Positions 29,162-46,030 of a stretch of 64,000 bases of DNA are shown here, piece by piece (positions within the stretch are counted from its first letter, which is position 1; every line of letters starts with the position of its first letter). The translations under genes and the position numbers were made by a program. Below the pieces are notes generated by a model. That model was not told where the DNA came from. It searched no databases and worked only from the letters and a program-made list of their open reading frames with translations. The stretch comes from a bacterium (GTDB taxonomy: Bacteria; Oederibacteriota; Muellerivitia; Muellerivitales; Muellerivitaceae), in the NCBI GenBank assembly GCA_035549195.1, contig DASZRK010000060.1, positions 1-64,000 of the forward strand, written 5' to 3'.

Positions 29162-29710
29162 ATGACGGAATTGGAAGCCATTGAGCGCTGCCAAAAAGGG
29201 GATGTCTCTGGGCTCCAGGTGCTTTTTGAGCTTCATCGCACCAAGGTCTATAACCTTTCCTGGCGCATGTTAGGGTCTCCCCAGGACGCGGAGGATGTGC
29301 TCCAAGAGATCTACCTGAAAGTCTTCGACCGGATCGGGAAATACCGGGGTGATTCGGCCTTCAGCACATGGTTGTATCGGATGACCACGAACCATTGTTT
29401 GGACATCCTTCGACGAAGGAAGATATTGACGTTCCTCGGTTTCGAGAACACGCCCGAGGCGGAAGATAAAAAGGACAGCGAAAAAATCCCTGATCTGGGG
29501 TTCAGTCCGGCCATCCTCCGGGCATTGGGCCGGCTGCCCGGAAAACAAAAGGCCTGCCTCTTGATGTGCGAGATGGAGGACATGAGTTACGAGGACATCG
29601 CGGTGGCGTTGAAGTTGTCCTTGGGGTCCGTGAAGTCCAACATCCACCGGGCCAAGGCTTTTTTAAAGGAGGCCCTGGAAAAAGAGGGCCTGAGCAAGGA
29701 AGATGTCTGA
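29162..29710 (+). CDS. ECF-family RNA polymerase sigma factor
   Basis: 182 residues. Region 2 has DAEDVLQEIYLKVF and the -10-reading segment FSTWLYRMTTNHCLD. Region 4 has LPGKQKACLLM followed by the helix-turn-helix SYEDIAVALKLSLGSVKSNI. No region 1 or 3, as in ECF sigma factors. It directs RNA polymerase to stress-type promoters. The next gene is a single-span membrane protein that could be its anti-sigma factor, followed by a Spy-like periplasmic protein. Confidence 0.92.
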   Translation: MTELEAIERCQKGDVSGLQVLFELHRTKVYNLSWRMLGSPQDAEDVLQEIYLKVFDRIGKYRGDSAFSTWLYRMTTNHCLDILRRRKILTFLGFENTPEAEDKKDSEKIPDLGFSPAILRALGRLPGKQKACLLMCEMEDMSYEDIAVALKLSLGSVKSNIHRAKAFLKEALEKEGLSKEDV

Positions 29711-37712: not shown

Positions 37713-39974
37713 ATGCCCGAACCCCAGGCCCGTGAGCTCAAGGTCAATTACAGCAAAAAGAAGTCCTTTTGGATGACCCTCGGGGTCATCTTCCTTCTCC
37801 TCATCCTCAACCAGATGAACCTTTCCATTTTCCAGGTCATCGAATCGGTGACGGTGGACGATATCCGCTATCCGGTGCGTGGAGAACGGAAACCCGAGGC
37901 TCCGGTCGCCATCGTGGCCATCGACGAGAACAGCCTTCGGGAGATCGGGCAATGGCCCTGGCCGCGGTCCATCCATGCCCAATTGATCCGGAAGCTGAAG
38001 GCGGACGGCGCCAAGGTCGTCTTTTACGACGTCTTTTTCCCCGAACCGGAACGCAATCAGGCCAAGGCTTTCGGACAGTTGCAGACGCTCTTGGATTCCT
38101 CCATGCAGGGGACCAACCGGTCCACGAGGGCCATGAAGGAAAAGGTCCTGGAAAGTGTCCGGAAGTTCCAGGGCACCCAGGATGGGGATGAGATCTTCGC
38201 CCAGGCCCTCAAGGAGACCCATAACGTCCTGTTGCCCATCTTGACCCTGGGTAAGACGGAAAAAGCGGCCGAGCTGGACGAAGCGGACATGAATTTCACG
38301 GCAGCGGATTATCAACCCGAATTGGAGGATCACCCCTTCTGGAGCGAGAACTTCTTGGTCTCGATCCCCAAGCTCCAAAAGGCGGCCCTGGACGCGGGGA
38401 ATATCCGGCCGGTCCCGGAGTCCGACGGTGTTTTCCGTTATTACCCCGCCATCATCCGGTATGGAAAGGAAGGGAAGTACATCCCTTTCATGGCGCTCCA
38501 AGCGGCGCGCTATCTGCTGGGGGTCAAAGATCCGATCAAGATCTACTCGGGCGACCATGCGGAGATCGGGGATCGGAAGATCCCCCTGCTGGATAACGAT
38601 AACGCCTTCATCGACTATTGTGGGAAGCCGGGGATCATCCCGACCTTTTCGGCCAGCGACATCCTGAACGACCGCCTCAAGCCGGAGCAATTGGCCCAAT
38701 TCAAGGGAGCGGCGATCCTGGTGGGCGCCACCGCCCAGGGCCTTTACGACCTGCGACCCACGCCCTATAGCCACGTCTCACCCGGCGTGGAATTGAACGC
38801 CACCATCGTGGAGAACGTCTATTCCAACCACTTCAAGGCCCTGGCGCCCGATTATTGGAAGCTGCTCCTGATCGTCCTGATGGCCATGCTGATGTGGTAT
38901 TTGGTCCCCCGGTACAGTCCTTTCCTCGGGATACTGTTCTTCCTCGTCCTTCTGGTCGGGTATGTGGGGGTGGCCTGTGTTTGCTTCGACCATTTCAAGA
39001 CGATCCTCAACGTGACCTTCCCGAGCCTTTCGCTCCTGCTGACCTTCATGATGCTGACCACCTATAAATTCAGGACGGAGGTCCGGCACAGCCGCTATAT
39101 GAAGCAGATGTTCCAGAGCATGGTGGCGCCTTCGGTCGTGGAGGAGATCCTGAAACTGCCGGCCGGGATCGAACTGGGGGGCGAGGAAAAGAACCTGACG
39201 GTCATGTTCTCTGACGTCCGGGGTTTCACGACCTATTCGGAGAAACATACGCCCCATGAGGTGGTCGAGGTCCTCAACGAATACCTGACCCAAATGACCT
39301 ACCTGGTCTTCCAGACCGAAGGGACCCTGGACAAGTACATCGGGGACGCCATCATGGCCTTCTGGGGCGCCCCGACCCATCAACCGGACAACGCCTACCG
39401 GGCTTGCAGTACCGCCCTGGGGATGGTGGATCTCCTTCATAACGTGCTCCATCCCAAATGGGAGTTGGAGGGCAAGGAAAAGCTCCAGATCGGGATCGGC
39501 TTGAACTCGGGTCCCATGGTCGTCGGGTTCGTCGGATCCGAATCCATCAAGAGCTATACCCTCATCGGGGATGCGGTGAACCTGGGGAGCCGTCTGGAAG
39601 GGACGACCAAGGAGTACCACGTCGAGATCATCATCGCCGAAAGCACCTATGAGCAGGTCAAGAACGACATGCTTTGCCGGGAACTGGACCTCATCAAAGT
39701 GAAGGGGAAGAACGAACCCATCCGCATTTACGAATTGGTGGATCACCGGCTGAAGGGTGCGGGGGTCAAAGAATCGAAGGTGAAAGCCTTCGAGGAAGGC
39801 CTGGCCCTTTACCGGGAACAAAAATGGGACGAGGCGGTCAAGGGGTTCAAGAAATGCCTCGAGCTGGATCCCAAGGATGGGCCGGCCGAGATCTTCATTA
39901 AACGTTGCGAACAGCTCCGCCAGAATCCGCCCGGAAAGGGTTGGGACGGTGTTTTCGTCATGAAAACCAAATAA
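37713..39974 (+). CDS. CHASE2-domain class III adenylate/guanylate cyclase
   Basis: 753 residues. An N-terminal membrane helix (FWMTLGVIFLLLILN) and CHASE2 extracytoplasmic sensor (residues 50-375, with VAIVAIDENSLREIGQWPW) lead to three helices (385-450). A class III cyclase domain spans about 490-690, with metal-site Asp in FSDVRGFT (D501) and YIGDAIMAF (D545), and the transition-state motif GDAVNLGSRLEG. A C-terminal TPR-like segment ends it. All catalytic positions appear present, so it should make cAMP or cGMP in response to a periplasmic signal. FecR-domain cassettes follow immediately. Confidence 0.92.
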   Translation: MPEPQARELKVNYSKKKSFWMTLGVIFLLLILNQMNLSIFQVIESVTVDDIRYPVRGERKPEAPVAIVAIDENSLREIGQWPWPRSIHAQLIRKLKADGAKVVFYDVFFPEPERNQAKAFGQLQTLLDSSMQGTNRSTRAMKEKVLESVRKFQGTQDGDEIFAQALKETHNVLLPILTLGKTEKAAELDEADMNFTAADYQPELEDHPFWSENFLVSIPKLQKAALDAGNIRPVPESDGVFRYYPAIIRYGKEGKYIPFMALQAARYLLGVKDPIKIYSGDHAEIGDRKIPLLDNDNAFIDYCGKPGIIPTFSASDILNDRLKPEQLAQFKGAAILVGATAQGLYDLRPTPYSHVSPGVELNATIVENVYSNHFKALAPDYWKLLLIVLMAMLMWYLVPRYSPFLGILFFLVLLVGYVGVACVCFDHFKTILNVTFPSLSLLLTFMMLTTYKFRTEVRHSRYMKQMFQSMVAPSVVEEILKLPAGIELGGEEKNLTVMFSDVRGFTTYSEKHTPHEVVEVLNEYLTQMTYLVFQTEGTLDKYIGDAIMAFWGAPTHQPDNAYRACSTALGMVDLLHNVLHPKWELEGKEKLQIGIGLNSGPMVVGFVGSESIKSYTLIGDAVNLGSRLEGTTKEYHVEIIIAESTYEQVKNDMLCRELDLIKVKGKNEPIRIYELVDHRLKGAGVKESKVKAFEEGLALYREQKWDEAVKGFKKCLELDPKDGPAEIFIKRCEQLRQNPPGKGWDGVFVMKTK

Positions 39975-40103
39975 TCCCTATTTTTTTCTCGTTTTCCTTC
40001 CGTCCATTGTTTTTCAGCCTATTAATGCCATTTTGTTGGCGTTCCGATAGAATGCGTCACACCACTTCAACTCCTCCTTAAAATCCCAATTACCAGGGCA
40101 CCC

Positions 40104-40883
40104 ATGAAGAAATTACTGGTCGCGGCGTTGGCTTTGATCCTCATATCGGGTTTTTCCGGGACTTCAGCGGCAACCAAGGCCGGCTCCCAAGGCGTCATCA
40201 CGGACCTGAGCGGGAAGGTCCAGATCCAGAACAAAAAAAAGAAAAGTCGTGCGGCCAAGAAAGCCTCGGTCGTTGCCGAAGGGGAGAGGGTCATCACTGG
40301 TTCCGATTCCAAGGCGACCTTGCAGATGTTCGACGGGTCCGAGTTGAAACTGAGCCCCGGGACCGAATTCCAGGTCACGAAAGTTGAAAGACCCGGGGGC
40401 GATGACAAGATCATGCACTTCAAGCTTCTTGTCGGCCGTGTCTTTGCTTCGGTCAAAAAGCTGGCCTCCTCGAAATCTTCCTTCGAGGTCGAGGCGGGCG
40501 GGGTGGTCTGCGGCGTCCGGGGGACCCAATTTGGGATGGACTACGATCCGGTCAAGAACAAGGTGGGGTTGGGGGTCTTTGAGGGTAGTGTCTATACCCA
40601 CTACCACGGCCATTCCCAGATCTATGGGGCGGGCCAGAACGTGAATTTCCATGATGGTGAACCCGACCACCCGGGCAACGGGGGCAATGGGAACGGTGGC
40701 GCTAACGGGAAGGGGAGTGGGAACGGCGGGGGAAACAATGGGGGCGCCTTGAACGACCTTAGCCATCAGTTCACGGGTGGCTTGACGGGGAATGGGGACA
40801 AGGCTTTGAACGATCCCGCGGTGGAAGGTGTTCGCCACTTGTCGGTTATCGTGAATGTCGGGGCGGGGGAGACGGTCCCGTGA
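40104..40883 (+). CDS. Exported FecR-domain protein, cassette 1
   Basis: 259 residues. A signal peptide (MKKLLVAALALILISGF) precedes the FecR domain (residues 25-180), with GKVQIQNKKKKSR, FDGSELKLSPGTEFQV and the hallmark CGVRGTQF. The C-terminal part is Gly/Asn-rich (GNGNGGANGKG-like) and unstructured. No sigma factor or TonB receptor is nearby, so this is the stand-alone exported FecR type. It overlaps the following barrel gene by four bases. It is paralogous to 43081-43923. Confidence 0.85.
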   Translation: MKKLLVAALALILISGFSGTSAATKAGSQGVITDLSGKVQIQNKKKKSRAAKKASVVAEGERVITGSDSKATLQMFDGSELKLSPGTEFQVTKVERPGGDDKIMHFKLLVGRVFASVKKLASSKSSFEVEAGGVVCGVRGTQFGMDYDPVKNKVGLGVFEGSVYTHYHGHSQIYGAGQNVNFHDGEPDHPGNGGNGNGGANGKGSGNGGGNNGGALNDLSHQFTGGLTGNGDKALNDPAVEGVRHLSVIVNVGAGETVP

Positions 40884-42019
40884 AAAATTCTGTTCCCGCA
40901 TATATTTTTTCGATAGTCCTCTTGTTCCTGGCGCCTTCGGTTTCCAAAGCCGGTTATTTCTCCTTGGGTGAGAAAAGCTGTGTTTGGACGACTAATTTCA
41001 CTGATAAGACCAATGGCAATGAGTTCTATTTCCCGATCGCATTCGATATCAATCTCAATCCTGATTTTTCGTTCTACGGTTTTTCCCAGTTTGGCATTGG
41101 GAATTATTTTTCGACCCAAAGCGATCCGAACACCATTCATGTCTCAAATCTTTCCGATTCGATATTAGGAACCGAACTGCGATTCAATAATTTCTCCTTG
41201 CCGGCCCTTCTAAATATTGGGGTGAATTTCCCAACGGGTAATACGTCATGGGAGACCGAGGAGATCACGGCGAACGTGCCGGTCATTTTCATGGACAGCC
41301 GGTATCACGGAAGGGGTCTGGGGGTCAATGTGATGTATGGACTTACCTTCCCGTCGGGAAATACGGAATTGGGAGTGGCCTGCGGGTACTCCTATTCGGG
41401 AGCCTTTAATACGGGAACGATCGGTAGTGCGTCGGGGGATGACGTCAAATTTGGGGACTCTTATTTCGTTTCCCTGAGCCATGTCATGACATTTGAAAAA
41501 AATAAAAGACAGTACCTTCGTCTATCGGCCTATTCCTTTCTTCCGACCCAATTGAACGAACAGGATTCCTATCAACCGGGTTTGAACCTGAACGGATCTT
41601 ATAGCTGGGTGAATCCGACGGGTCTTTCGATCGATGTCGGCGCCCAGTACTTTTTCGCGTCTAAAAGATTGGATCTGTCCGCGGGCAAACTGGCGCAAGA
41701 ATCGAACGCATATTATGCGCCTAAGCTTTATTTGATCCCGACTGTTCCGGTCGGCGATCTGGAATTGGTCGGTGATTTTAAATACATTCTTCCCAACGAT
41801 TACCCGTTATCGGATGTCCTTCATGAGGGTGGCGGGATTTTGGCGGGTTTTGAACCTGAGTTGAAGTTCGGCCTCGATGGGACCAGCGATCTGAAAGTGA
41901 ACGCTGGTTATGACTTCATCCTCCATCGCGATGTGCCGGCGAACGAATCAGGCACCACCTTTACGGATGCTTATTACAACATGTTCACTTTTGGCGCGAC
42001 CTATGAGGTGAAGTTGTAG
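40880..42019 (+). CDS. Outer-membrane beta-barrel protein, cassette 1
   Basis: 379 residues from a GTG overlapping the FecR stop (GTGA). A signal peptide is followed by alternating amphipathic strands ending in a terminal aromatic strand (MFTFGATYEVKL). It shares GVNFPTGNTSWE, YHGRG and the last strand with the barrel of cassette 2 (GLNIPTGDDQWE, YHGRG, QFTFGANVGFKW), so the two are paralogues. Base composition is more AT-rich than neighbouring genes, perhaps relaxed or transferred. Function is unknown. Confidence 0.75.
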   Translation: MKNSVPAYIFSIVLLFLAPSVSKAGYFSLGEKSCVWTTNFTDKTNGNEFYFPIAFDINLNPDFSFYGFSQFGIGNYFSTQSDPNTIHVSNLSDSILGTELRFNNFSLPALLNIGVNFPTGNTSWETEEITANVPVIFMDSRYHGRGLGVNVMYGLTFPSGNTELGVACGYSYSGAFNTGTIGSASGDDVKFGDSYFVSLSHVMTFEKNKRQYLRLSAYSFLPTQLNEQDSYQPGLNLNGSYSWVNPTGLSIDVGAQYFFASKRLDLSAGKLAQESNAYYAPKLYLIPTVPVGDLELVGDFKYILPNDYPLSDVLHEGGGILAGFEPELKFGLDGTSDLKVNAGYDFILHRDVPANESGTTFTDAYYNMFTFGATYEVKL

Positions 42020-42050
42020 TTCGATTCTGCGTTTGATGGGGGAGGTTTGT

Positions 42051-42968
42051 TTGAGATTCCGTTCTTTGGTCCCATGGGCTTATTTCGCTTGCGCAGCGCT
42101 TCTCTTTTCCTGGGGTTGCAACTCCTCCCAACCGATCTCGCCGAACAAACCGACAGCCCTGGACGTTTCCCTGCCCCTGGGCTCGAACGTCCGGGCGTCG
42201 TTCTTAGGGATCACCCAGAACGAGGTCTTGTACCGCCTGGACGGCCCCAATCATAGCTTGATCCAAAAGGGGAGCGTCGGCCCCTTTTCGGCCGCGGTCA
42301 GTTCCGGTTCCCTGAATTTTTCACTTGAGGTGCCCAGCCAGGACAACATGGTCCTGTCGGTCCAACTGAATGACGCCGCTACCCATTCGCCTTTGGCGAT
42401 CGGTGCCGACAGGCTGGACCTGGTTTCGGCGCCGACCAAACAGATATCCATCGATTTAGGCTCCGTGATCCGCAATTGCTATTTCACCAATACCCAGTCC
42501 GCGGCGGTTTCGATCCTTTATTCGGGAATGATCTACAATTTCACCAATGACCTCTTGGCCAATACATTGACCCCGCTTTCCACGACGGACCTGATCGTGA
42601 ATCCCTATGGTCCGCCAACGAACCAGTTCTATTTTCAAGAGGCCACCCCCGTTGGCCTTCCGGTCAGTGTGATCGCCTACTTGGGAACCGGCGATTTGGT
42701 CGATTTTGATTATGTGCCCGCTTCCACTGCCTTTTATGCCGATTCCACGATATCGAAGGGAGGAGCGGTCCCGACCTTGGAGACAGGGGATATTTATTGC
42801 CTGAAATTGACCAGTACTCCTGGGGATTTTGCCTGGGTCCAAGTCGTCAACCCGGGTGATCCCGCTAGCGTGGGACCCAGTTTCCTTTTCCGGGCTTCGC
42901 CGAACCCGTATTTTTCCTATTTTCGGACCCCGGCGGATACGGGCGGCGGGTGCAGTACCCTTTGGTGA
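42051..42968 (+). CDS. Putative lipoprotein, cassette 1
   Basis: About 306 residues. The TTG at 42051 is chosen because GGGGGAGG ends five bases before it. The signal ends in LLFSWGC, a weak lipobox. It shares AYLGTGD and FYADS motifs and the GDIY-x-L closing region with the lipoprotein of cassette 2 (AYLGTGD, YYADS, GDVY). No enzyme motif was seen. It is probably anchored to a membrane and works with the barrel and FecR protein. Function is unknown. Confidence 0.7.
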   Translation: MRFRSLVPWAYFACAALLFSWGCNSSQPISPNKPTALDVSLPLGSNVRASFLGITQNEVLYRLDGPNHSLIQKGSVGPFSAAVSSGSLNFSLEVPSQDNMVLSVQLNDAATHSPLAIGADRLDLVSAPTKQISIDLGSVIRNCYFTNTQSAAVSILYSGMIYNFTNDLLANTLTPLSTTDLIVNPYGPPTNQFYFQEATPVGLPVSVIAYLGTGDLVDFDYVPASTAFYADSTISKGGAVPTLETGDIYCLKLTSTPGDFAWVQVVNPGDPASVGPSFLFRASPNPYFSYFRTPADTGGGCSTLW

Positions 42969-43017
42969 TCCGTCAGTCGGTCGGTAGGTTTAGGTAGAGT
43001 AAATTTCGTCCTGAGAT

Positions 43018-43045
43018 TTGATATTCATAAGGACTTTGGTAGAAT
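43018..43045 (+). promoter_or_regulatory. Promoter of cassette 2
   Basis: TTGATA (43018-43023), a 16-base spacer, then TAGAAT (43040-43045). Transcription would begin near 43052, giving cassette 2 its own promoter independent of cassette 1. Confidence 0.65.
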
Positions 43046-43080
43046 TCGCCCCATTCCAATCCCCAACGATCGAGGGTCTT

Positions 43081-43923
43081 TTGAAAACACTCCTTAAGCT
43101 TTCTGCGGTATTTCTGCTCCTGATGGCGGTCGGCCCTCTTTGGGCTGCGTCCACGGAATCCGGGGTCCTGACCCAGGTCGCGGGCAAGGTCCAGGTGAAG
43201 GACCGGTCCGGTAAAAAGGTCCGTGACGCCAAGGATGGGTCCAAGGTCAAAGAAGGGGAACGGGTGGTCACGGCCGCCGATTCCAAGACCATTGTCCGTT
43301 TCTTCGACGGCTCCCAATTGTCGGTCAGCCCCGGTTCGGACGTTCAAATGGGCGAGATGCGCAAGCTGGCAGGTCAGGACAAGGTCCTCCATTTCAAGCT
43401 TCTGGTCGGGAAACTCTTCGCTTCGGTCCAAAAATTGGCGTCCTCCAAATCATCCTTCGAGATCGAGGCTGGAGGCGTGGTCTGCGGTGTTCGTGGCACC
43501 GAGTACACCCTGCAATACGATCCAACCACCGGAAAGACCAATATCCAAGTGCTCGACGGGACCGTTTGGGTCCAGTCGGGAGGCAACACCTATACCTACG
43601 GCGCAGGCCAAGGTGGGTCCTTCACCAATGGGAACCCTGATAAGGGCAACGGGACCGGCAATAACGGGAACGGGAACCAGGGCAAAGGTGGGAACGACTT
43701 CAACCCCTTCTACGGGTTCAACGGGAACGGTGGGGATGATCCGGGTGCTCTCTTGGGTGATCTTTCGGGTGGCACGGGGGATGTGGTCGGCCAGACCGGG
43801 GATGACGGCCGTAACCAGACGGGCCGCGCGGGCCTGGTCCTTCAATTGGACTTTCCTGAATACGGTAATCCATTGGGTGGTGGTGGCGGTGGATCACCGT
43901 CTGTCCGAGGAGGCGGGAAATGA
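43081..43923 (+). CDS. Exported FecR-domain protein, cassette 2
   Basis: About 280 residues from a TTG at 43081, which yields the signal peptide MKTLLKLSAVFLLLMAVG. The FecR core is nearly identical in places to cassette 1 (LASSKSSFE, then EAGGVVCGVRGT). A Gly/Asn-rich tail follows, ending in an Arg/Gly-rich stretch. The four-base overlap with the barrel gene (ATGA) repeats the cassette 1 arrangement. No sigma or TonB genes were seen. Confidence 0.85.
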   Translation: MKTLLKLSAVFLLLMAVGPLWAASTESGVLTQVAGKVQVKDRSGKKVRDAKDGSKVKEGERVVTAADSKTIVRFFDGSQLSVSPGSDVQMGEMRKLAGQDKVLHFKLLVGKLFASVQKLASSKSSFEIEAGGVVCGVRGTEYTLQYDPTTGKTNIQVLDGTVWVQSGGNTYTYGAGQGGSFTNGNPDKGNGTGNNGNGNQGKGGNDFNPFYGFNGNGGDDPGALLGDLSGGTGDVVGQTGDDGRNQTGRAGLVLQLDFPEYGNPLGGGGGGSPSVRGGGK

Positions 43924-45077
43924 AGATTTCGCCCTCTTTCTTCTCGACGCTTGTTGCCTGTTTCTTGGTGTTCGGTCTTTCGAAGGCCGGTGCTTGGGAC
44001 CAAGAACTCCAGACGGGTTATGTCTTTGACTTTTGGAATTCGAATTTCATCTATCACGGCAGTGAAAGCCGTCTACCCCTTTCCTATCGTCTTTCGAATG
44101 AGAAGTGGTCCTTCCAACTTTCGACCGCTTTCGTTCTGGGCGACTACCAGGCGGACGCAACCCCCTCTTCGGACGTTTCCAAGTTCAGCGGTCAGGATCT
44201 CTCCGACCTGAGCCTCCGGGCTTCCGTCGTCCTTCCGACGGGAGGCGATGTGAAGTCCAGTTTTTCGGGAGGATTGAACATCCCCACGGGCGATGACCAG
44301 TGGGAAGCGAAGGCGGGGGATGGAGCGGTTCCCTATAATTTCGACCCCAGCTATTACCATGGGCGTGGTTGGGATTTCAACGTCTTCTATACCCTCAACT
44401 CGCTGGGGCAAGGGACCCAGTGGGGTGTTGGGTTTGGGTTCCTTCAAGCCTCCAGTTATCTCAATTCGGGTGAAGCGCCCGCTCCCTGGGGGGCTTTGGT
44501 GGGAATGGGGACTTTGGGTTTTCCGGCCGGGGCGGACGAGCTTTTTGCCTTGCGCGGTGTCTATAGCCGGCCCCTGGCTGCGAACGCTCCCCATGTGTCG
44601 GGTGCTTTCACCCTGAGCCCGACCGTGGAAGCGTCCGGGCAATGGGTCAAGAAGCTGGGTCGCGATCGCCTTCAGTTGACCGTGTCCTATGACCTGTTCG
44701 GCCAAAGCACTTTTCCGGACATGTCCTCCGGCATCAATTCACCGACCTCGGAGACTTTTTTGGGTGACCGACTCCGGGTCCGGCCGTTCCTGGCCTGGGT
44801 TTTCGCCCCGGGCGTGGCGATGGAAAGCGGACTGGAGTGGAAACATATCCTCTCGAACGGTTACGCGACCGATGACCAGGCCTATAACGGTGGCGGCGAC
44901 CTCTTGGGGGCGTTGCAAAGCGCTACCTTCCAGGTCGATCCCGCGACCTTCTTCAATTTGGCCGGTTCTTATCAATATGTTCTTGCGAAAGATTACGCGA
45001 AGGATACGGGCGGTCAGTTGACGAATGTCACCTTCAATCAATTCACCTTCGGAGCGAATGTGGGGTTCAAATGGTAA
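43920..45077 (+). CDS. Outer-membrane beta-barrel protein, cassette 2
   Basis: 385 residues with a signal peptide and a beta-rich body. Conserved positions with the cassette 1 barrel (see 40880-42019) prove common origin. The last strand (QFTFGANVGFKW) ends in an aromatic residue, as expected for assembly by the BAM machinery. It overlaps FecR upstream by four bases and the lipoprotein gene downstream by seven. Function is unknown. Confidence 0.78.
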   Translation: MKISPSFFSTLVACFLVFGLSKAGAWDQELQTGYVFDFWNSNFIYHGSESRLPLSYRLSNEKWSFQLSTAFVLGDYQADATPSSDVSKFSGQDLSDLSLRASVVLPTGGDVKSSFSGGLNIPTGDDQWEAKAGDGAVPYNFDPSYYHGRGWDFNVFYTLNSLGQGTQWGVGFGFLQASSYLNSGEAPAPWGALVGMGTLGFPAGADELFALRGVYSRPLAANAPHVSGAFTLSPTVEASGQWVKKLGRDRLQLTVSYDLFGQSTFPDMSSGINSPTSETFLGDRLRVRPFLAWVFAPGVAMESGLEWKHILSNGYATDDQAYNGGGDLLGALQSATFQVDPATFFNLAGSYQYVLAKDYAKDTGGQLTNVTFNQFTFGANVGFKW

Positions 45078-46030
45078 AAAAAATTCTGTTCCCGATCGGG
45101 TTGCTTGTTTTAGGCGGTTTGTTGGTCTTGACGGGTTGTAACCAAGCCAATCCTCCGGTCACTCCCCGGGATTCGGCGTCTTTGGTCATCGCCTTTCCTG
45201 TGCCTAAAACGGTCTCTCCGGCCTTAAAGAACAGGTCCCGGTCGGGGGTTCCTTCTCCGAAATCGGCCTTACCCCTGAGCTATGGGACTTTCGAATACAA
45301 CATCTCGGCCGGTTCGGAGGCGGTGACGGGTTTCGTGGATATTTCCTACGGAGTGACCATGGGGACCGTGAGCATTCCCCTGCCGCACAATGGAACTTGG
45401 CTGGTTTCGGCCGAGTGGCTCGAATACGGGAACCCCCGGTTCATCGGCGCGGATCAGGCCGTGGTCAATGGGACCACCAACCTGAACCTCCAGATGGGGG
45501 ATGTCACCCTTTATGGTTGCTCCTACGATTACCTGGCCGATCCAAATAGCTGTTATTCGACCTATAGCGGGGATATCTTCACTTTCGATTCGGGTTTTAT
45601 TGGTTATTCCACCAACCTCGATACGGGTGACATACAGATCGTATACGACCAGAACAATGGTACTGAAACCATGACCAGCCCTTCCGGTGCCAGCCATGGT
45701 TTCGCCTATCTCGGAACGGGGGATTGGTTGAACTACACCCAGATCCCGTCGGGGACCGTTTACTACGCCGATTCGGAAGCCGCCAAGACCGCCATTCTGG
45801 GGGCCGGCAATGGCGGCATGGCTTACGGCGATGTCTACGCGATCCAAATTTCACCCACGTCCCATGTTTGGCTCCAGATCACCGGTGATTACAATTGCGG
45901 GTCCGGGGATGAGGTGTATTTTGGGTTCCGGGTCAATACCCAAGGTTATTCCTACATGAAGTACGAAGCCACCAGCTACGGGAAAGCCAATTGCACCAAT
46001 GAGACTTATTCCGGCGGCGGTGGCGGTTGA
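45071..46030 (+). CDS. Lipoprotein, cassette 2
   Basis: 319 residues. The signal ends in a clear lipobox (LVLTGC). The body is beta-rich, Gly/Ser/Tyr-heavy and extracytoplasmic, with a Gly-only tail. Motifs shared with the cassette 1 lipoprotein are AYLGTGD, then YYADS and GDVYAI. It is the third gene of cassette 2, overlapping the barrel gene. Possibly a surface or periplasmic partner of the barrel. Function is unknown. Confidence 0.75.
   Translation: MVKKILFPIGLLVLGGLLVLTGCNQANPPVTPRDSASLVIAFPVPKTVSPALKNRSRSGVPSPKSALPLSYGTFEYNISAGSEAVTGFVDISYGVTMGTVSIPLPHNGTWLVSAEWLEYGNPRFIGADQAVVNGTTNLNLQMGDVTLYGCSYDYLADPNSCYSTYSGDIFTFDSGFIGYSTNLDTGDIQIVYDQNNGTETMTSPSGASHGFAYLGTGDWLNYTQIPSGTVYYADSEAAKTAILGAGNGGMAYGDVYAIQISPTSHVWLQITGDYNCGSGDEVYFGFRVNTQGYSYMKYEATSYGKANCTNETYSGGGGG

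Follow-up and report, generated by a model that had tools for sequence, protein, structure and literature searches.

Two FecR, beta-barrel and lipoprotein gene cassettes beside a CHASE2 cyclase gene: a candidate surface-to-cyclase sensor in candidate phylum FCPU426

Described systems and the window locus

CHASE2 domains occur in many bacteria, and the signal which they sense has been stated to be unknown (PMC5192318). In Sinorhizobium meliloti, the outer-membrane barrel NsrA is reported to mediate the response of CHASE2 cyclases to a plant protein (PMC13001267), and Clr, the regulator of this CHASE2-cyclase pathway, has the FecR-domain protein SMc02177 among its targets (PMC5498481). In Campylobacterota, CHASE2 cyclase genes cluster with those for a FecR-domain outer membrane protein, a phosphodiesterase and a TPR protein (PMC9239204), and the Burkholderia BiofilmReg operon brings a LysM-FecR protein together with a CHASE2 kinase (PMC5192318). 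The window analysed here, by which we mean the whole 64,000-nucleotide (nt) stretch of contig DASZRK010000060.1, comes from a soil bacterium of an uncultured phylum and holds two head-to-tail cassettes on the + strand, at positions 40104-42968 and 43081-46030, each encoding a FecR-domain protein (FecR1, FecR2), a predicted beta-barrel (barrel1, barrel2) and a lipoprotein (lipo1, lipo2). A gene for a CHASE2 class III cyclase, the single CHASE2 gene of this genome, ends 129 nt upstream of FecR1. We lean, if not heavily, towards the reading that cassette and cyclase constitute a transferable sensor which would connect the outer membrane to cyclic AMP (cAMP) production at the inner membrane.

The outline of such a chain, from outer membrane to cyclase, is supported by the precedents of NsrA, the FecR-CHASE2 clusters of Campylobacterota and the Burkholderia FecR-CHASE2 kinase pair. 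As in the system of NsrA with CyaD1, CyaD2 and CyaK, where an outer-membrane beta-barrel is placed in the pathway ahead of CHASE2 class III cyclases (PMC13001267), a CHASE2-class III cyclase is encoded with the module and an outer-membrane beta-barrel is present, the latter by prediction only. The module differs from the NsrA system in that the barrel, FecR, lipoprotein and cyclase genes are linked in the family of genomes to which the window belongs, and in that several cassettes occur per CHASE2 gene. The Campylobacterota cluster likewise co-encodes FecR and a CHASE2 cyclase, inferred to act in a single pathway, whereas the passage cited names no separate barrel or lipoprotein, and the window set is without a noted phosphodiesterase or separate TPR gene (PMC9239204). 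In the BiofilmReg operon a FecR-domain protein also adjoins a CHASE2 sensor; there, however, FecR forms one protein with LysM, CHASE2 belongs to a histidine kinase and no barrel is among the four listed genes (PMC5192318).

The FecR domain also recalls FecIRA, in which it serves as the periplasmic relay from an outer-membrane barrel, and signalling of this type for iron or other cell-surface cues, through an extracytoplasmic function (ECF) sigma factor encoded elsewhere, could draw on the presence of that domain and on an ECF sigma gene approximately 10 kb away. The architecture of FecR and of the cassette contradicts it: FecR1 and FecR2 are without a cytoplasmic anti-sigma part or transmembrane helix, their signal peptide running straight into the FecR region, the barrels (379-385 residues, no Pfam match) are not TonB-dependent receptors with a plug, and no sigma gene was noticed in the cassette neighbourhoods read. 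We therefore regard FecIRA-type signalling as very improbable, in line with the initial annotation, which had remarked that neither a sigma factor nor a TonB receptor adjoins the window cassettes. In Pfam searches of the window cassette proteins only PF04773 in FecR1 and FecR2 was found, the barrels and lipoproteins giving no match to any family; the TonB-dependent SusC barrel and SusD-type lipoprotein of SusCD/RagAB are thus not matched by the cassette barrels and lipoproteins. The best NCBIfam matches of the FecR domain are the Leptospira surface proteins Lsa33 and LipL45, but at approximately 64 as against 420 bits they fall far short of the curated cut-offs, with only the FecR domain in common.

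Conservation and common inheritance of cassette and cyclase

The two three-gene sets of identical order which had first been recognised in the window are borne out as six open reading frames on the + strand, and all of the motifs then listed as shared were found, namely LASSKSSFE and CGVRGT in the FecR proteins, PTGNTSWE or PTGDDQWE, YHGRG and FTFGA in the barrels, and AYLGTGD and YADS in the lipoproteins. Consistent with a shared overlap style, the last 4 nt of each FecR gene also belong to the barrel gene that follows, while barrel1 and lipo1 are separated by 13 nt (31 nt from the favoured TTG start at 42051) and barrel2 and lipo2 overlap by 7 nt. Gene by gene, the two cassettes are paralogous far beyond chance, as BLASTP comparison gave 45% identity for FecR1 and FecR2 (E 3e-61), 26% for the two barrels over their full length (E 2e-25) and 25% for the two lipoproteins (E 3e-11).

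A search of the genome collection with a FecR alignment returned named relatives that are mostly metagenome assemblies of candidate division FCPU426, and the window genome (3.2 Mb, 97.9% complete, nine FecR domains and a third cassette on contig C2) is a member of this candidate phylum. Among 45 FCPU426 genomes, the barrel is present in all eight that make up the family and, outside it, in G013 alone, which belongs to a different family. Family genomes carry one to three cassettes each, some of those counted being cut by contig ends and a few genes being partial, with the third cassette of G006, which spans two contigs, counted once. A FecR gene lies directly upstream of each of the 18 barrels of the family, and the lipoprotein belongs to the set in 17 of them; the usual order is FecR-barrel-lipoprotein, the lipoprotein standing first in two loci of G004 and being absent in a third (G004:C19). 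In the type I cassette of G005 a FecR fragment with one in-frame TAG is located at a contig edge (L067, G005:C6, 5104-5514).

Maximum-likelihood trees of FecR, barrel and lipoprotein all split type I cassettes, represented by the first window cassette, from type II, with support for the type II clade of 100/99 (barrel), 100/99 (FecR) and 96/95 (lipoprotein). Type II comprises the second window cassette, G005:C134, G000:C2, G001:C83, G006:C73 and G002:C101, together with G007:C288 where present, and the second window cassette and G005:C134 are sisters in all three trees. The distance matrices of the cassette partners correlate (r 0.71, 0.57 and 0.89), and when partners were swapped within genomes the observed FecR-barrel pairing was the best of 576 arrangements, while for the pairs that include the lipoprotein only 2 and 3 of 96 arrangements, the observed one included, do as well. 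The common split and this co-divergence of partners inside genomes establish that the cassette is passed down as a block and that the window tandem is made up of ancient paralogues, the two types standing apart in other genomes. The earlier description of a duplicated set consequently holds as regards paralogy but not as regards recent duplication in place, which the three trees rule out.

The cyclase gene lies directly upstream (124-131 nt) of a type I cassette in G000, G001, G004 and G006, and every family genome besides that of the window likewise has one CHASE2 gene, except for G003 (65% complete), in which none was found. In G001, G004 and G006 the locus consists of two ABC-2 permease genes, the CHASE2 cyclase, a type I cassette, MarC and a NAD-kinase-like gene; in the window the type II cassette is located between lipo1 and MarC, and in G002 (L173, contig C73) and G007 (L174, contig C138) the cyclase stop codon is just 19 nt from MarC at a cassette-free site. 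As this site may be single, doubled or empty, the cassette is a discrete unit. G006, which is of the same genus as G002 and G007, does hold a cassette there. In G002 and G007 the type II cassette is preceded by a different cyclase, of FHA-GAF-adenylate cyclase architecture (L065, L066), which itself follows a Ser/Thr kinase with NHL repeats as judged by a Pfam run on the G002 copy. More widely, FecR and CHASE2 genes lie on the same strand within approximately 10 kb of each other in 14 of the 37 CHASE2-bearing FCPU426 genomes, from five families. Three loci (L163-L165, in G035, G009 and G023) share another CHASE2-FecR arrangement, in the order CHASE2 cyclase, exported protein, FecR, without a cassette barrel.

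A profile of 17 barrels, searched against 384 genomes, detected remote relatives in another phylum (E down to 2e-23), where the barrel is present in 16 of the 24 genomes examined. Homology between the barrels of the two phyla was established with hhalign (99.7%, E 3.5e-27) and persisted when the signal peptide was left out (99.55%, E 2e-23), the reversed control giving 0.1%. In the loci read from this second phylum the barrel gene is preceded by FecR in the same orientation, the exceptions being L202 and L215, both of which are cut off by a contig edge; L206 has a broken barrel and, between the two genes, a spurious open reading frame called on the opposite strand. No FecR neighbour was called for the barrel relatives in G279, G201, G280, G246 and G340. 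An adhesin-like lipoprotein is encoded upstream in about half of the second-phylum loci, and a CHASE2 cyclase downstream of the barrel in six, one of these being in pieces (L204). In the cyclase tree, the CHASE2 cyclases of the family and the cassette-linked ones of the second phylum form sister groups (100/99), which stand apart from the CHASE2 cyclases that other FCPU426 families encode (100/99) and have in common a C-terminal motif of the type WD-x-V/T-(F/Y). This grouping suggests joint movement of cyclase, FecR and barrel. The three-gene order proposed as a check is conserved across the family, with its FecR-barrel pairing recurring in a second phylum. Neither of the outcomes which the initial annotation had named as refuting it came about, as orthologues are co-located elsewhere and the two window barrels belong to one family.

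Predicted products and their possible roles

The AlphaFold2 model of barrel2 (385 residues) is a beta-barrel with a predicted local distance difference test score (pLDDT) of 82.1 and a predicted template modelling score of 0.78. DSSP assigned 17 long strands to the model, which is probably a 16-strand barrel, as short and long turns alternate consistently when 87-94 and 97-108 are taken as one strand. The longest loop of the barrel carries its most conserved motif, PTGxxxWE with YHGRG. Foldseek matched the model to FadL, CymA and porins (E approximately 1e-8, template modelling (TM) score up to approximately 0.6), which are generic matches, and a PDB sequence search with the barrel profile returned nothing meaningful. 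These likenesses to FadL, CymA and general porins would fit a porin specific for some substrate, lidded by the lipoprotein and joined by FecR in the periplasm, which takes up a polymer or small molecule, with the conserved long loop perhaps folding into the pore and the diverged paralogues serving different substrates. We consider such transport improbable, as the barrels have no plug domain, no substrate genes common to the cassettes were seen, the fold matches are generic and both FecR and the cyclase would be left unexplained. Two other candidates were set aside for the barrel. A match to an autotransporter beta-domain came from 2 of 17 barrels (best 1.8e-5), barrel1 not being among them, and was treated as generic barrel similarity; the match to ExtJ of the Geobacter Ext conduits was below the cut-off and did not reach beyond the signal peptide and its N-terminal surroundings. 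The cassette differs from such conduits in having no accepted ExtJ homology and in its lipoproteins, in whose alignment no haem motifs were seen.

In both phyla a variable linker in the cassette FecR proteins usually leads to a C-terminal strand of alternating hydrophobic pattern, a feature that is missing in five of six non-cassette FecR proteins. Similarity of the FecR domains to the retention module of LapA-type adhesins was at most 35.8 bits as compared to a cut-off of 50, and that module stands at the adhesin's own N-terminus whereas the cassette FecR is a separate protein. The link was judged unspecific and rejected, as it does not reach the curated cut-off and extends to FecR proteins at large, non-cassette ones among them.

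For the lipoprotein, the fold search with the lipo2 model (pLDDT 75) gave nothing in the PDB at E<1e-3; the top candidates were DUF3823 (2.5e-3), a pilotin (4.7e-3) and BfrB (1e-2), with TM scores of at most 0.31 on the query. The cassette lipoprotein domain also opens far longer proteins, of approximately 600 to more than 2800 residues, in which it is joined to Thr/Pro-rich stalks and to NHL, Kelch or PPC domains, as is typical of proteins at the cell surface. The lipoproteins upstream of the second-phylum barrels similarly have a common N-terminal domain followed by PKD, Big, fn3 or Kelch domains. One giant lipoprotein (L078, G000:C47, 17.0-25.6 kb; more than 2800 residues read in an open frame of 3675) has the cassette lipoprotein domain, a Thr/Pro stalk, PPC and NHL repeats, in that layout.

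An alternative role would be surface assembly: FecR would serve the barrel as adaptor or plug on the periplasmic side, and the barrel would export or anchor the lipoprotein as well as, through the N-terminal module which they have in common with it, the large stalked propeller lipoproteins. The cyclase would then be a regulatory neighbour and not a partner. It draws on the stalked proteins headed by the lipoprotein domain, on the extensions of this kind borne by some cassette lipoproteins (L070, L072), on the PKD, Big, fn3 or Kelch domains of the second phylum and on the LapA-like similarity of FecR, and it is the main rival because most cassettes are unlinked to a CHASE2 gene and the triad of G013 came without a detected one. 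In the stretches read, however, several giant lipoproteins are encoded in loci without a barrel or FecR gene, the lipoprotein is absent from the FecR-barrel pair of G004:C19, the LapA similarity is sub-threshold and equally a property of non-cassette FecR proteins, and the co-inherited CHASE2 cyclase is left unexplained. Surface assembly thus appears unlikely, albeit worth weighing against a sensor.

From the cell surface to the cyclase

In the sensor that we favour, each cassette would form an outer-membrane receptor unit, with the barrel in the outer membrane, the lipoprotein domain at its outer face and the exported FecR protein in the periplasm. FecR would contact the barrel, perhaps by docking its C-terminal beta-strand, carried on a flexible linker, and would on its other side contact the part of the inner-membrane cyclase that lies in the periplasm, namely its CHASE2 domain. 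Surface contact or a ligand would then alter cAMP production, the signal passing, we infer, from the barrel inwards. The one to three cassettes of a genome would all feed its single CHASE2 cyclase, whose product would act via some of the cNMP (cyclic nucleotide)-binding proteins; the window genome encodes eight class III cyclases and 15 cNMP-binding domains, and cAMP-type signalling is therefore well developed in it. The fuller version of this proposal, in which interchangeable lipoprotein/barrel/FecR units of a modular, horizontally transferred system converge on one CHASE2 cyclase with FecR as its periplasmic ligand, is put forward more tentatively, as a possibility that we would not yet back. 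It is well supported that the three products form one envelope unit, as the initial annotation had proposed, although that proposal overlooked the neighbouring CHASE2 cyclase, the most useful clue to what the unit does.

Several observations weigh against the sensor. Most cassettes do not adjoin a CHASE2 gene; G013 (89% complete) has the triad, with a weak lipoprotein match, and no CHASE2 gene was found in it; G002 and G007 have kept the cyclase without an adjoining cassette; and CHASE2-FecR linkage also exists without a cassette barrel. Once the signal peptide is left out, the second-phylum lipoproteins resemble those of the window only suggestively (33%, E 5e-4; score 31 as compared to at most 17 for shuffled sequences, with shuffled controls at no more than 0.65%). 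The second-phylum sample of the cyclase tree consisted of linked cyclases only, although unlinked CHASE2 genes also exist in that phylum, and the claim of joint movement is limited accordingly.

The FecR-CHASE2 pairing itself is already known; the cross-phylum co-inheritance, the conserved barrel and lipoprotein and the duplicated receptor units appear to be new, and no description of a system of FecR/barrel/lipoprotein composition was found in the openly licensed literature. If the sensor is real, the question of what CHASE2 domains sense would be narrowed to a short list of binding tests, FecR domains would be shown to work with cAMP signalling instead of sigma factors, and a function would be provided for genes of an uncultured phylum that lie outside the descriptions of Pfam and NCBIfam.

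Coordinates and minor features of the window

Coordinates and sequence features of the locus are as follows.

Table 1. Genes and promoter-like sites of the cyclase-cassette locus in the window.
Feature	Position	Strand	Description and basis
CHASE2 - class III adenylate/guanylate cyclase - TPR protein	37713..39974	+	753 residues; C-terminus ...GWDGVFVMKTK; CHASE2 3.7e-52, Guanylate_cyc 1e-29 (Pfam)
Two weak promoter-like matches 5' of FecR1	40025-40053, 40056-40084	+	9/12 each; consensus scan only
FecR1 (type I)	40104..40883	+	signal peptide, FecR domain, Gly/Asn-rich linker, C-terminal beta-strand motif ending ETVP; PF04773 2e-13, alignment, tail comparison
barrel1 (type I)	40880..42019	+	GTG start; 379 residues; predicted outer-membrane beta-barrel; homology to barrel2, alignment
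lipo1 (type I lipoprotein)	42051..42968	+	lipobox ...FSWGC; longer frame starts at 42033
Promoter-like site 5' of FecR2	43018-43045	+	TTGATA-16-TAGAAT, TG before second hexamer; best match of the region, 10/12; consensus match only
FecR2 (type II)	43081..43923	+	TTG start; conserved tail FNPFYGFNGNGGDD...LVLQLDFPEYG, then Gly-rich extension; PF04773 1.9e-11
barrel2 (type II)	43920..45077	+	385 residues; conserved loop 122-151 with PTGDDQWE helix and YHGRGW; C-terminal ...GFKW
lipo2 (type II lipoprotein)	45071..46030	+	lipobox LTGC; 319 residues

On sequence grounds FecR2 most likely starts at TTG 43081, upstream of which lie GAGGG and the promoter-like site, and lipo1 most likely at TTG 42051, preceded by GGGGGAGG. 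The nearest ECF sigma gene found in the window (29162-29710) is the first of a group extending to 30615, in which it is followed by an unassigned 135-residue open reading frame and a gene for a Metal_resist-like protein; located approximately 10 kb upstream of the cassettes, this group is apparently unrelated to them. An exact 16-nt direct repeat, AAAAATTCTGTTCCCG, occurs at 40883-40898 and 45079-45094, where barrel1 and lipo2 respectively have their 5' ends, in a reading frame that differs between the two copies; by a rough count its chance expectation is approximately 0.005.

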